Source: a virus
DNA: 34,460 bases
IMG/VR virus record: IMGVR_UViG_3300031962_000015
Location: 1 to 34,460 of that record
Reading direction: 5' to 3' (one strand)
In this document: positions 2,310-21,509 of the stretch, piece by piece
How the letters are laid out: each line of letters begins with the position of its first letter
Position numbering within the stretch: position 1 is the first letter of the stretch
Made by a program: the position numbers and the translations under genes
Notes under the pieces: generated by a model
The model's input: only the letters and a program-made list of their open reading frames with translations
Told to the model about the DNA's origin: nothing
The model's database searches: none

Positions 2310-2340
2310 TTGCTTTTGATCCTCACCCTTATAGTATACT
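2310..2340 (+). promoter_or_regulatory. Probable promoter of the major capsid transcript
   Basis: A -10 element TATACT lies at 2335-2340, just downstream of the tandem terminators. The -35 is poor: TTGCTT at 2310-2315 has a 19-base spacer, and TTTTGA at 2314-2319 has 15. A start about seven bases after the -10 falls at the first base of the hairpin series. A transcript beginning here would carry a leader of about 160 nt. Confidence 0.5.
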
Positions 2341-2345
2341 GTTCC

Positions 2346-2472
2346 TGACGTAAGGGATTCGTCACCCCACGACGTATCGGTCTCGTCAACCATTCTCTTT
2401 TGGCGTATTGGCCTCGCCAGCCACAGACGTACCTAAGCTTCGTCAGCTTAAACTGCGTTGTCTCAATGCGCG
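2346..2472 (+). other. Series of five small hairpins in the capsid mRNA leader
   Basis: Five short inverted repeats follow each other at intervals of about 25-30 bases. They are TGACG/CGTCA (2346-2364), GACG/CGTC (2371-2387), TGGCG/CGCCA (2401-2419), GACG/CGTC (2426-2444) and a weaker TGCGT/GCGCG (2454-2472). Four have nine-base loops and one has eleven. Loops of the second and third units read TATCGGTCT and TATTGGCCT. The third stem changes both sides (G-C in place of A-T), so pairing is kept while sequence varies. The fourth unit overlaps an alternative stem, TAAGCT/AGCTTA (2434-2450). A translational or transcript-stability control of the capsid gene is inferred; no known RNA family is recognised. 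Confidence 0.6.
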
Positions 2473-2506
2473 ATCTTGCGTAAAACCTCTTATTTGAGGA
2501 AAAATA

Positions 2507-3457
2507 ATGGCTATAACCACGACAAGTGTGTTACCACCACCAGTACAACAAGCTTTTAATAATAAGCTTCTTTCTGTCCCAGTACCTCTTTTGATTCACG
2601 GCCTTCCAGCTATGAAGTTCAAAATGGAAAGAGCATCTGGTAATACAATGCGTTTCCGTAGGTATAACAAATTAGCAACAGCTAAAGTACCACTAGGTAA
2701 CTCTGGTGTGACTCCTCCTGCATCTACTCTTACTGCTGTTGATATTGATGCTAAAATTGACTTCTACGGTAACTGGATTGCGATTAACGAACAAGTTACT
2801 TTACAAGCACAAGATCGACCTCTAAACGAAGCTGCAGTTATTCTTGGACTTAACCTTCGTGAAACAGAAGATCAGTTGATACGTGACATGTTAGCTGCTA
2901 CTGCATCAGTTATAAACTGTGTTAGTGGTGTTAATGGTGATAATCCAACAGAAATTACACGATCTGATGTTGATCAAATAGTCAGAACATTGCTTGGTAA
3001 TGATTCTAAATCTATTTTTGAAAATATTGAGGGTGAAAATAAGTTTGGTACAGCTCCTGTTCGTAACTCGTTTATGGCTCTTGCTCACACTGACCTTTCA
3101 GCTGATTTGAATAACGTTTCTGGATTTGTTCCATCGGCGCAATATCCATCACAAAAAAATATTCTCCAAGCTGAATACGGTAGCGTATCTCAATTGAGAT
3201 TTATGTTGTCATCTATCGGTTCTATCTCTAACAATGCTTCTAATAACGGTGCGAATGTGTATAACATTTTCTGCGTAGGACAAGAAGCGGTTGGTATTGT
3301 AGACCAAGATGGTGCTGGCGCTCAATTCATTTACTTGCCGCCACAATATAGTGGACCACTAGCTTTAAACTCTAGTGCGGCTTGGAAAGCAGCATTTGTT
3401 CCTCGTATTTTAAATGATCTTTGGATTCTTAATCTACGTGCGACATTAAGCGCTTAA
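2507..3457 (+). CDS. Major capsid protein, N4-gp56 family
   Basis: The 316-residue product forms the head shell. The pattern LPAMKFKMERASGNTMRFRR followed by a low-complexity linker with TPP and then FYGNWIAINEQVTL is typical of the N4-gp56 major capsid family (HK97 fold). Also typical are the helix LNLRETEDQLIRDML, the segment SFMALAHTDLSADLNN and the late AEYGSVSQLRFMLSS. The length is at the short end for this family. The ribosome site TTGAGGA is well placed before the ATG. Position after the scaffold and before small head genes agrees. It is preceded by its own promoter and structured leader, which suggests it is expressed separately from and more strongly than the scaffold. Confidence 0.88.
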   Translation: MAITTTSVLPPPVQQAFNNKLLSVPVPLLIHGLPAMKFKMERASGNTMRFRRYNKLATAKVPLGNSGVTPPASTLTAVDIDAKIDFYGNWIAINEQVTLQAQDRPLNEAAVILGLNLRETEDQLIRDMLAATASVINCVSGVNGDNPTEITRSDVDQIVRTLLGNDSKSIFENIEGENKFGTAPVRNSFMALAHTDLSADLNNVSGFVPSAQYPSQKNILQAEYGSVSQLRFMLSSIGSISNNASNNGANVYNIFCVGQEAVGIVDQDGAGAQFIYLPPQYSGPLALNSSAAWKAAFVPRILNDLWILNLRATLSA

Positions 3458-6352: not shown

Positions 6353-8476
6353 ATGGCCGATAAGTTTATGATTGCACCCGTTACTGTCGGTTTACAAACT
6401 GACGTAAGACCATGGTTACTACCAGATAGTGCATTCGCTACGTTAAATAATGCGGTAGTGTTCTTTGGTCGTGTACGTAAACGTTTCGGTTCTGCTCCTA
6501 TGAACTCTCTTCCTTCCCCACAATTTAGACAGTTATATTCTCGTTTAAGGATCAATATAGGAACCACTGCTGCTGTTTCAGGTAATTTTAGCGCGACGGT
6601 ACCTGGTGCAGTATTTAATGTTGGTCAACAGTTCTCTATTGGTAACACAGTACTGACAGTTCCCTCGTTAGGTGCTCCTGTTACCTTGTTAACGACAGGA
6701 GCAGCAACGGGAACTTACAATACGACTACCGGAGCTTTGGTTATTACTGGTAACACTGAGAACCCTTTAACAGCGGTTTATTTTTATCCTGCAACACCAG
6801 TTATGGGTTTTGTTGATTATGAAAATAGTACTTTGATTAACCAGGAAACTCTTTTTGCCTTTGATACTCAATTCTCTTATTACTTTACAGGTACTCAGTG
6901 GGAAAATTTAAGTACTGCCGCTGCTGGTACATGGACCGGTACTGACTATAATTTTCCTTGGGCAACTAATTATCGTGGTATTGCTGCTTATAATAATTAT
7001 CTTTTTGTTGTGAACTATAATCCGACTGATCGAGTTCGTTATTATGATGGAGCAAACTGGAATATACTTACAGGTGCTGGTATACAATACGATTCTTCAG
7101 CTGGTGATGAGATTTATACTGCTCGTATAGTTCTATCCTTTAAAGGAAGATTACTTCTTTTAAATACGGTTGAGTTTCTTGGATCAACAGCATCACTTCA
7201 GACGTATACCAATAGGGTTCGCTATTGCCAAGTTGGTGATCCTGTATCTGCTGGTCAAACTCCATGGAGAGAAGATATAGGCGGTAAGGGTGGCTTTATA
7301 GATGCACCAACAAAGCAGGCTATTATATCTGCAAGAATATTGAAAGATAGATTGATTGTTTACTTTGAGGAATCAACCTATGAACTTGTTTATCAAGGTA
7401 ATCAAGAATTACCATTTACCTTCCAGCAAATTAACGCTGAACTTGGTGTTGAGTCTACTTTTTCTACTGTTACCTTTGATCGCTCCATTATTGGTGTTGG
7501 CAACATTGGTGTTCATGCTTGTAACGGTGCTTATGTTGAGCGTATCGACGATAAGATCCCAACAGAAGTCTTTAATGTAAAAGTTACCGGCAATGAAATG
7601 AACCGTATTTACGGAGTAAGAGACTTTTTTAATCAGATGGTTTATTGGGCAATTCCTAGTGTTGCGAACGCCAATACGGTTTATCCTAATCAAGTACTTG
7701 TTTATAACTATCAAAATGGCACTTGGGCTATGTATGATGATTCTATTACCGCATTTGGTTACGTACAAAGATTTGAGCAACTTCCTACAGGAATTAAAGA
7801 TGTTCTTGCTGGTAATCAGGAAGGATTTACTTTTGTTTGTAATGCAGATGAGTTTAGAAATTCCGCTGCGTTACAGATAAGTAAAATAATCTACGCTACA
7901 CCAGTAGTAACCTTAACGGTGATCAATCATAATCTTTCTACGAATGATTTTGTTGCTATTGAAAATGCTCAGGGACTTACTGGTATTAATAATGCTGTGT
8001 ATGAAGTTACCGTGGTAGATGCTAATACGTTTACTATCAATCTTGTTGGTATGACGGGAACTTATACAGGACTTGGAACAGTCGCTCGTGTAAGTCGTAT
8101 AGATATACTCACAAAACAGTACAACTTCTATTCTTCTAATGATAGAAATTGTCACGTTAAAGCTATTAATTTTTTTGTTGATAGAACAGATACTGGCGTT
8201 ATGACTGTGGATTTTTTACCATATAATTTTTCTACTAATCCGCCTGTTCCTTTGACGAGTATGATATTAGAGACATTTCCTTATACTCTTTATCCTATTG
8301 AATTACTTCAAACTCAATTATGGCATGCGGTATATCCTAATGCTGAGGGAAATCTTATTCAACTAAGAATCTATCAGTCTGATGCTCAACTATTGGCATC
8401 AACTATGGATGGTGTTGATTTCGAGATGCACGCTATGCTTTTCACCGCTGACAGTACAACCAATAGATTGCAGTAG
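6353..8476 (+). CDS. Tail hub / stabilisation-like protein (P22 gp10-like)
   Basis: This 707-residue protein starts after AAAGGA. It begins GLQTDVRPWLLPDSAFATLN followed by GRVRKRFGS, the usual opening of podovirus tail-accessory hubs that describe a beta-propeller. Later it has NNYLFVVNYNPTDRVRYYDG, LKDRLIVYFEESTYELVYQG and NGTWAMYDD, typical of the phage stabilisation protein group to which P22 gp10 belongs. An FCCH-like domain is inserted at about residues 503-581 (HNLSTNDFVAIENAQGLTGI). Such proteins close the portal channel and carry fibres. The gene ends exactly where the opposite-strand gene ends, inside a 12-bp palindrome. Confidence 0.7.
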   Translation: MADKFMIAPVTVGLQTDVRPWLLPDSAFATLNNAVVFFGRVRKRFGSAPMNSLPSPQFRQLYSRLRINIGTTAAVSGNFSATVPGAVFNVGQQFSIGNTVLTVPSLGAPVTLLTTGAATGTYNTTTGALVITGNTENPLTAVYFYPATPVMGFVDYENSTLINQETLFAFDTQFSYYFTGTQWENLSTAAAGTWTGTDYNFPWATNYRGIAAYNNYLFVVNYNPTDRVRYYDGANWNILTGAGIQYDSSAGDEIYTARIVLSFKGRLLLLNTVEFLGSTASLQTYTNRVRYCQVGDPVSAGQTPWREDIGGKGGFIDAPTKQAIISARILKDRLIVYFEESTYELVYQGNQELPFTFQQINAELGVESTFSTVTFDRSIIGVGNIGVHACNGAYVERIDDKIPTEVFNVKVTGNEMNRIYGVRDFFNQMVYWAIPSVANANTVYPNQVLVYNYQNGTWAMYDDSITAFGYVQRFEQLPTGIKDVLAGNQEGFTFVCNADEFRNSAALQISKIIYATPVVTLTVINHNLSTNDFVAIENAQGLTGINNAVYEVTVVDANTFTINLVGMTGTYTGLGTVARVSRIDILTKQYNFYSSNDRNCHVKAINFFVDRTDTGVMTVDFLPYNFSTNPPVPLTSMILETFPYTLYPIELLQTQLWHAVYPNAEGNLIQLRIYQSDAQLLASTMDGVDFEMHAMLFTADSTTNRLQ

Positions 8477-19510: not shown

Positions 19511-20170
19511 ATGGCACAAGTTAATAGTATAAATAATGCGACCTCGCAACTTACGATTGATCCTGGAGCTTCCGGCAACTCATTCGTTCAATACAATGTT
19601 AACGCATCATCTAAATTTATTATGGGTATTGATGATTCTGCTTCTGATGCTTTTAAAGTATCTGTTGGATCTGCTTTAGGTACTACTGATAGTTTCATAA
19701 TAACTAGTGCAGGTTACAATACCATGCCTTTATGTCCTGCTTTTTTAGGTTATCTTCCCTCTACTGATACCAATGTAACTGGTGACGCAACGGTATATAC
19801 TTTAGGTGGAACAACAGCTCTTACAAAAGCATTTGATTTGGGTACTAATTTTACAACTGCGGGGGTATTTACGGCTCCTATTACGGCTCGCTATCATTTT
19901 ACTGCCATGGTAGAAGCTAATAATATGACTAGTTCTAATAATTTATATTACATACAAATTGTTACTACTAATCGCACTTACCAAATTAATATTGATCCTG
20001 CTTCTATTATAGGATCAGGTATATTGAGTAATAAAGTAGCAACAGTTGCTGATATGACGTCAGGAGATACAGCAAAAGTTCAGATTAGTGTTGCGAATAC
20101 AACAAAAGTAGTAGGGTGTGTTGGTGGATCCAATGGTAATTCATCATTTTCTGGATTTTTAGCTTGTTAA
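19511..20170 (+). CDS. C1q-like fibre protein, tandem copy 1
   Basis: The product is 219 residues after AAAGGATATTA. Residues 1-75 form an N-terminal module (ASSKFIMGIDDSASDAFKVS) seen at the base of many fibre proteins. Residues about 78-219 follow the C1q/TNF-like jelly-roll pattern: AFLGYLPSTDTNVTGD, FDLGTNFTTAGVFTAPITAR, YHF, MTSGDTAKVQISVAN, and the final FSGFLAC. Such domains form trimers and bind receptors. The next two genes are tandem paralogues of the same length. The N-terminal 75 residues are more conserved than the C-terminal half, as expected if the tip is under diversifying selection. Confidence 0.8.
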   Translation: MAQVNSINNATSQLTIDPGASGNSFVQYNVNASSKFIMGIDDSASDAFKVSVGSALGTTDSFIITSAGYNTMPLCPAFLGYLPSTDTNVTGDATVYTLGGTTALTKAFDLGTNFTTAGVFTAPITARYHFTAMVEANNMTSSNNLYYIQIVTTNRTYQINIDPASIIGSGILSNKVATVADMTSGDTAKVQISVANTTKVVGCVGGSNGNSSFSGFLAC

Positions 20171-20179
20171 AGGATAGAG

Positions 20180-20839
20180 ATGGCACAAATTAATAGTATA
20201 AATAATGCCACATCGAAGCTCACTATAGATCCTGGAGCATCCGGAAATTCTTTTGTTCAATTTAATGTTAATGCATCTTCTAAGTTTATTGTTGGGATTG
20301 ATGATTCTGCATCAGATGTTTTTAAAATATCTCAAGGATCTGCTCTTGGTACAAATGATACGTTTATAATGAATACTTCTGGTGTTCCAAGGATGCCTTT
20401 ACAAGCTGCTTTTTTAGGTTATTTACCTTCAACAGACACCAATGCAACTGGTGATACTACTCAATATACTTTAGGTGGAACAACAGCATTAACAAAAGTA
20501 TTTGATCAGGGAACTAATTTTACAACTGCAGGGGTATTTACAGCGCCCGTAACAGGTCGTTATCATCTATCGGGAATGATATATTTAGGTGCTTTAACAA
20601 GTTCTAATAATTTAGCGACTATAGATATTGTTACAACAGCAACTATCTATGATATTAACTTTAACTGTAGTTCTGTTATATCATCAGGAAAATTAAGTAT
20701 AGGTATAAACACAATGGCTAGTATGACAGCTGGTGATACGGCCTTTGTTCGTACTAGAGCTGAAGGAACTTCAAAAGTTGTTAGTGTATTGGGAGGAGCT
20801 AATGCAAATTCATCCTTTTCGGGTTATTTAGTATGTTAA
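20180..20839 (+). CDS. C1q-like fibre protein, tandem copy 2
   Basis: The product is 219 residues, closely related to copy 1 in its N-terminal module (GASGNSFVQFNVNASSKFIV) and in FLGYLPSTDTNATGDTTQYT and FDQGTNFTTAGVFTAPVTGR. It differs through the segment before the last strand. The ribosome site AAAGGATAGAG precedes it. It is separated from copy 1 by 9 bases. It keeps the same C1q/TNF-like layout and final FSGYLVC. Tandem identity suggests recent duplication followed by divergence. Whether copies form homo- or heterotrimers cannot be seen. Confidence 0.8.
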   Translation: MAQINSINNATSKLTIDPGASGNSFVQFNVNASSKFIVGIDDSASDVFKISQGSALGTNDTFIMNTSGVPRMPLQAAFLGYLPSTDTNATGDTTQYTLGGTTALTKVFDQGTNFTTAGVFTAPVTGRYHLSGMIYLGALTSSNNLATIDIVTTATIYDINFNCSSVISSGKLSIGINTMASMTAGDTAFVRTRAEGTSKVVSVLGGANANSSFSGYLVC

Positions 20840-20849
20840 AAGGATATTA

Positions 20850-21509
20850 ATGGCACAAGTTAATAGTATAAATAATAAAACTTCTCAATTAACTGTAGAT
20901 CCTGGAGCTACTGCTAATTCCTTTATTCAATATAATGTTAATGCTTCTAATAAATTTATTATGGGCATAGATAACTCTGCTTCTAATGCCTTTAAGATAT
21001 CTGCAGGATCTGCTTTAGGAACTACAGACACATTTATCACTACAACAGCAGGAATAATAACTAGACCCTTACAATGCGCATTTGCCTATAGAAATAGTTC
21101 TATAGCTTCTAACGTTACTGGTGATGGTACTGCTTATACATTAGCAGCAACAACAAAGATATTTGATCAAGGAAGTAATTTTAGTTCTCCTACTTTTACG
21201 GCTCCTGTTACTGGTTATTATTATTTATCAGTAAAGATGTATATAAGAAATGAACCTACTGCTGCAAGTACATCAGGCACCATTGCTATAATCACAACCG
21301 CTAGAACTTATACTTTTTTTCTAGATAATCCTTCTGTTCTTCCCAACTCAGGAACTGATTTTGTAGAAAGTGTATATGTTTTTACTAATATGACCGCTGC
21401 CGATACTATGACTACTACTTTAACAATGTCTGGTGGTACAAAAACAATAAGTATGTTTGGTAGCGCTGCCCAATTTTATACAGGAATAACAGGAAGTTTA
21501 ATATGTTAA
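20850..21509 (+). CDS. C1q-like fibre protein, tandem copy 3
   Basis: The product is 219 residues and the most diverged of the three. The N-terminal module is again conserved (FIQYNVNASNKFIMGIDNSA). The C1q-like half has CAFAYRNSSIASNVTGDGTA, then a shortened strand and FDQGSNFSSPTFTAPVTGYY, with a final GSLIC. Its upstream 38 bases and first codons (20839-20876) are identical to those of copy 1 (19500-19537), so the duplicated unit includes the ribosome site. All three end in a Cys two or three residues after a Gly, possibly functionally relevant. Confidence 0.8.
   Translation: MAQVNSINNKTSQLTVDPGATANSFIQYNVNASNKFIMGIDNSASNAFKISAGSALGTTDTFITTTAGIITRPLQCAFAYRNSSIASNVTGDGTAYTLAATTKIFDQGSNFSSPTFTAPVTGYYYLSVKMYIRNEPTAASTSGTIAIITTARTYTFFLDNPSVLPNSGTDFVESVYVFTNMTAADTMTTTLTMSGGTKTISMFGSAAQFYTGITGSLIC

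Follow-up and report, generated by a model that had tools for sequence, protein, structure and literature searches.

The window analysed here, the whole stretch of 34,460 bases of an IMG/VR virus record, carries the gene for an N4-gp56-like major capsid protein, and four repeat units lie at 2346-2450, between a -10-like hexamer and this gene (Table 1). A terminator-like hairpin is found at 2272-2305, upstream of both TATACT and the unit array. Two adjoining 44-nt direct repeats, 77% identical and each consisting of an inverted repeat followed by T's, occupy 2221-2308 and resemble a pair of terminators in tandem, lying just ahead of the capsid promoter. A consensus promoter scan of the window leader found no full sigma-70 promoter, and for that reason the predicted transcription start was placed from the -10-like hexamer and from the distances observed in relatives. 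In MFE folding the Shine-Dalgarno-like sequence (SD) of the window can pair with CCTC just upstream of it. Elsewhere in the window, the virion gene region at 19511-21509 holds three consecutive ORFs of 219 aa, the first two 68% identical, which judging by their similarity is a recent gene duplication and probably a triplication. The gene at 6353-8476 encodes a virion structural protein (phrog_3287) in which the Pfam domain E1_FCCH scores above the curated cut-off.

Table 1. Features of the capsid leader in the window (S1 and S2 are the first and second helix of a unit).
Feature	Position	Strand	Details
-10-like hexamer TATACT of presumed capsid promoter	2335-2340	+	sequence; predicted transcription start ~2346
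Unit 1	2346-2368	+	S1 TGACG 2346-2350 / CGTCA 2360-2364, loop 9; S2 GGG 2354-2356 / CCC within 2365-2368; covariance model match 2347-2369
Unit 2	2371-2391	+	S1 GACG 2371-2374 / CGTC 2384-2387, loop 9; S2 GGT 2379-2381 / ACC 2389-2391; covariance model match
Unit 3	2401-2423	+	S1 TGGCG 2401-2405 / CGCCA 2415-2419, loop 9; S2 GGC 2410-2412 / GCC 2420-2422 (TGGC/GCCA possible); covariance model match
Unit 4	2426-2450	+	S1 GACG 2426-2429 / CGTC 2441-2444, loop 11; S2 TAAGC 2434-2438 / GCTTA 2446-2450; covariance model match
Shine-Dalgarno-like GAGGA of capsid gene, outside array	2496-2500	+	sequence
Major capsid protein gene, N4-gp56-like	2507-3457	+	phrog_1357 major head protein E 1.8e-34; Pfam Phage_capsid_4 above cut-off

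The initial annotation described this leader as a series of five small hairpins. The stem variants that it listed (TGACG/CGTCA, GACG/CGTC and TGGCG/CGCCA), their loops of nine or eleven bases and the spacing of 25-30 nt between unit starts were confirmed at four positions, and these four are real repeat units, but a fifth stem near 2455-2472 has neither the core sequence of the unit nor a second helix and was dropped. The description as hairpins was itself wrong, since it missed the second helix present in every unit. Bases of the loop closed by S1 pair with the bases immediately 3' of S1, and therefore the strands follow the order A-B-A'-B', which is the plan of an H-type pseudoknot. As had also been claimed, the loops of two units differ at only two positions; these are units 2 and 3 (TATCGGTCT and TATTGGCCT), and one of the differences, T to C, is accompanied by A to G in the S2 partner, a compensatory change from T-A to C-G. 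None of 5000 dinucleotide-preserving shuffles of 2340-2472 contained four ABA'B' units (mean 0.24), while at least four plain hairpins were present in 2 of the 5000. MFE folding of the leader is mildly unusual (z = -1.75), a value that is mild because ordinary MFE folding cannot form the second helix, and on its own this folding was rejected as an uninformative test of leader structure.

Searches with the capsid protein matched many virus contigs, from which 130 leaders were reduced to 102 non-redundant ones. Units are present in the capsid leader of 69 of these 102, with one to six units per leader in the relatives and a median spacing of 30 nt. Their common plan consists of an S1 of 4-6 bp, an L1 of about 3-7 nt starting with YA, an S2 of 3-6 bp, an L2 of about 2-4 nt that usually ends in U and an L3 of 0-3 nt. 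The second helix was assessed in 231 units defined by a relaxed rule that is blind to S2 and also admits false units, with the downstream flanks permuted in 2000 trials. At least three Watson-Crick pairs of S2 occur in 177 of the 231 units (permuted mean 77.5, maximum 98), at least four in 116 (24.8±4.6, maximum 43) and at least five in 55 (mean 7.0, maximum 16). A separate S2-blind permutation test gave an S2 of at least 3 bp in 56/60 units versus 25.5. Permutation controls of this kind keep some relatedness between sequences; redundancy was cut, and a second capsid family, described below, serves as a separate replicate.

Pairing is kept while the sequence changes. The units of the relatives contain 106 different second-helix sequences, and in 97 units defined by core and S2, an S1 pair that was not used in selection covaries (GC 45, AT 45, GT 2, with 5 mismatched), another S1 pair in the same set being GC in 63 and AT in 17, besides others. 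S1 hardly varies at its C-G and G-C pairs, and the exceptions change on both sides, as in GGACT/AGTCC and GGATG/CATCC (L122), GACAA/TTGTC (L038) and GACC/GGTC (L089, L100). When 47 units were aligned with MAFFT, so that S2 is held in one register, pairing is seen between columns 14 and 26 in 46 units (GC 24, AU 20, GU 1, UA 1), between 15 and 25 in 41 and between 13 and 27 in 38, and the covariation score of S1 and S2 together is 0.563, compared with 0.231 for shuffled units and 0.06-0.15 when partners were slid; because all 47 were chosen for an S2 of at least 3 bp, the unselected test on 231 units carries more weight. There are thus two interleaved helices, each with compensatory changes, as in an H-type (ABA'B') element. 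That a conserved structure exists is nearly certain from these comparisons, and we infer that the two helices of a unit coexist in a tight pseudoknot. The original proposal that RNA structure in the capsid leader is under selection is supported from two sides, since shuffled sequences do not reproduce the array and the homologous leaders of relatives keep the pairing. On comparative grounds, 2346-2450 holds four small RNA elements in tandem, an array that belongs to a widespread class of phage leader RNAs tied to the capsid operon.

The non-Watson-Crick pairs on the + strand are G-U in 7 cases versus A-C in 1 (97 core and S2 units; small numbers), as expected for RNA of that strand. This bears on a function at the DNA level, in which the repeats would serve as operators or as a site of packaging or replication. 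S1 by itself forms a DNA palindrome that recurs close to the promoter, but the interleaved second helix is not the plan of palindromic half-sites, stem sequence varies freely with pairing kept, G-U exceeds A-C, and the units are found beyond the promoter, on the strand of the mRNA; we give a DNA-level function hardly any credence.

Some further features of the relatives deserve mention. In the leaders of L014, L018, L031 and L040, some units have an extra small hairpin in L1, with S1 and S2 retained, as would be expected if L1 faced the solvent. The capsid gene of L037, L041, L042 and others appears to be split by insertions resembling group I introns, and there the units are upstream of the insertion. 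GTDB genomes searched with the capsid protein alone gave no match, and a search with the capsid alignment found nine MAG contigs with relatives of this protein, three of which (L142, L149 and L150) are filed under Chlamydiota (Simkaniaceae, Parachlamydiaceae and Parachlamydia), a weak hint at the host of these uncultured phages.

A covariance-model search, which the initial annotation had suggested, was made with a model of the unit in 24 virus records (~891 kb, E up to 0.05). Judged by the contig ranges, all 37 matches fall in capsid-gene leaders, except in L051, where the leader is that of the scaffold gene, and in the window the matches are the four units only. Where no gap in gene order separates the scaffold gene from the capsid gene behind it, the units stand before the scaffold gene instead. 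These scaffold-leader units often follow a classical pseudoknot, for example CGC-TT-GTC-G-GCG-TTAA-GAC, and 13 of 18 candidates for it have a second helix, versus 5.9±1.8 after permutation. Two protein-blind DNA patterns were also scanned against IMG/VR, and among the matches listed nearly every locus with a convincing pair of units is followed by a capsid gene of this family, with identities as low as 33-37%.

In L326, from a protein-blind scan, the units precede a capsid protein of a different family (phrog_14242), for which blastp detected no similarity to the capsid protein of the window (E 0.7). Relatives of the L326 capsid, in phages of ~60% GC, have three-unit arrays between the scaffold and capsid genes, and 25 units of this second family have an S2 of at least 4 bp versus 6.8±2.4 permuted (maximum 16). 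In L393, also of the second family, the array lies 18 nt after the scaffold stop; being so close behind it, the array in this family may be intercistronic rather than 5'-terminal, and it seems to lie inside a longer transcript. Some members of this family, namely L394, L399, L402, L406 and L411, seem to encode a hydrophobic stretch upstream of 2500, after the array and ahead of the conserved start of the capsid protein.

Single pseudoknots were found by eye in cultivated phages, a comparison that rests on two pairs of sequences. Before the scaffold gene, Bacillus phage Page has CGAC-C-TGAG-CAA-GTCG-TTAAATCTA-CTCA (L151 1560-1665) and Bacillus phage Pascal has GCGTC-C-TGAG-TAT-GACGC-AATAAAAGA-CTCA (L275 1535-1630), so that the first helix is altered throughout with its pairing kept. 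The scaffold leaders of Paenibacillus phages API480 and SV21 (L155, L276) share another single pseudoknot with one G-U change. No obvious unit was seen by eye in the leaders of Pseudoalteromonas Y3, StenR_269, Arthrobacter Brad/Jasmine and Cellulosimicrobium DS1. The single pseudoknots of Page and Pascal offer an entry point for bench work.

Among 39 relatives with a -10-like match, the first unit follows that match by 5-8 nt in 22, as compared with 5/21 for later units, and therefore the transcript probably begins with or beside the first pseudoknot. Terminator-like sites are enriched upstream of the arrays (9/67 versus 4/238), in line with a dedicated capsid transcript. From the last S2' to the ATG the median distance in relatives is 40 nt and never less than 15 nt. 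Sequestration of the SD by other hairpins shows no excess over shuffles and was rejected as a general mechanism. It has been reported that RppH and RNase E require single-stranded 5' ends and that 5' structures stabilise mRNA (PMC3997798). Because the first unit tends to lie at the expected transcription start, the SD is free, upstream terminators are enriched and these enzymes need single-stranded ends, we favour the view that the array is a tandem-pseudoknot roadblock protecting the capsid mRNA from 5'-end decay, to which we assign not quite an even chance. As a mechanical barrier, the array would deny RppH/RNase E or RNase J a free 5' end and would stall 5'-to-3' decay, the several units acting as redundant back-ups, and the result would be a long-lived mRNA for the most abundant virion protein with its ribosome-binding site left free. 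Both functions put forward in the initial annotation, a protein-binding array and a stabiliser of expression, are viable, and the stabiliser fits somewhat better.

A location just after the promoter, a strand-specific structured RNA and multiple elements would also suit an antitermination RNA acting in cis, like HK022 put, by which RNA polymerase would be modified just past the promoter so as to read the structural operon. However, the number of units varies from 1 to 6, and in the records searched the arrays precede only the capsid operon and no other transcription units, which makes antitermination improbable. The short L3 raises another question, since it is well below the length usual in a classical H-type fold with an S1 of 4-5 bp, and S1 and S2 could for this reason be alternative hairpins. 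Each helix alone is a weak hairpin (mean S1 -3.1 and S2 -1.4 kcal/mol), and together with the conserved core nucleotides this could fit a bistable switch or riboswitch in which only one of the two hairpins could form at a time, the choice being made by a ligand or by temperature. Such a switch is quite improbable, as an expression platform is missing, with SD sequestration at chance level and no terminator noted between array and gene, and a capsid gene is an unlikely metabolite target.

The strongest rival to the decay roadblock comes from the conserved core (C-G, G-C, YA and U), which exceeds what a plain obstacle needs and may be a ligand or protein site. The array could bind a conserved RNA-binding protein, either a host factor or the scaffold or capsid protein of the phage, that controls capsid translation or mRNA fate, with several units giving avidity. 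The core C(Y)G-YA...U-CG is conserved across varied stems, the copies are in tandem and they are restricted to the capsid operon; there is also a precedent in T4 gp32, which binds a leader pseudoknot and represses its own translation (PMC3014915). On the other hand, the SD of the capsid leaders is neither in nor adjoining the array, although cooperative spreading is possible, and binding of the capsid protein to its own leader is made less likely by the element being shared by two capsid families without detectable sequence similarity, as it would need convergence. Taken together, we regard a binding array as rather unlikely. The same sharing between two dissimilar families argues for a generic role in expression, as the decay roadblock would provide. 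The second family may also count against the roadblock, its array being intercistronic rather than 5'-terminal; there, a block of a 5'-3' exonuclease or of decay intermediates would still work, whereas primary 5'-end protection would not.

No relevant Rfam 15 family, preQ1, fluoride and other riboswitches among them, matched the window leader (scanned at E up to 5) or any of 12 relatives (scanned at E up to 1), in agreement with the earlier statement that no named RNA family has this plan. A description of tandem pseudoknots in phage capsid leaders was not found in the open-licence literature (subscription papers and preprints were outside the search), and the RNA element is apparently undescribed. 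We describe an apparently new class of structured RNA that shows strong covariation, is linked to the virion gene with the highest expression and is carried by a phage group with no close cultivated member. It provides a clear and testable example of the ways in which late mRNA may be protected or tuned by DNA phages and, if the roadblock holds true, the units would be compact parts for stabilising mRNA in bacteria.

Several known systems resemble the array in part. The gene 32 leader of T4, T2 and RB69 likewise has an H-type pseudoknot in a phage mRNA leader, but in single copy, before a gene for an ssDNA-binding protein and with autoregulation shown, whereas the arrays described here are tandem and precede capsid genes (PMC3014915); with a capsid protein gene downstream, they are not the T4 gene 32 translational operator. 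The 5'-terminal stem-loops of the ompA/papA type are alike in that a highly expressed mRNA is structured at its 5' end or close to it, where the structure would block access of RppH/RNase E, but they are plain stem-loops and the capsid-leader units are conserved, tandem and ABA'B' (PMC3997798). The closest plan is that of STAXI (RF01728), a tandemly repeated pseudoknot, as are the one to six units per leader here. STAXI pseudoknots are usually repeated two or three times, have frequent UUCG tetraloops and no known function, and are found in Enterobacteriales near SSB, topoisomerase, antirestriction and integrase genes (PMC2864571). The phage units, in contrast, occur in capsid or scaffold leaders only, their consensus differs from that of STAXI, and the STAXI covariance model had no match in the window leader (E up to 5) or the 12 relatives (E up to 1); because of this gene context and model result, the units were not filed as STAXI.

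Viral exonuclease-resistant RNAs (xrRNAs) occur as repeated copies. They are pseudoknot-dependent elements that block 5'-3' decay (PMC5760640, PMC8571300). No xrRNA family of Rfam matched the window leader or the 12 relatives, and xrRNAs have larger ring-like folds in the 3' UTRs of RNA viruses, where they face Xrn1, while the capsid-leader units are ~25 nt long and stand in 5' leaders of DNA phages. Flaviviral xrRNAs offer an analogy of mechanism only for the favoured roadblock, which is derived, like the rest of this account, from comparative sequence analysis. It is possible, though doubtful, that the units represent a new and widespread phage RNA class, in which tandem pseudoknots in capsid leaders act as roadblocks to bacterial 5'-to-3' decay, kept across dissimilar capsid families and hosts of different GC content, as a bacterial counterpart of the viral exonuclease-resistant RNAs.
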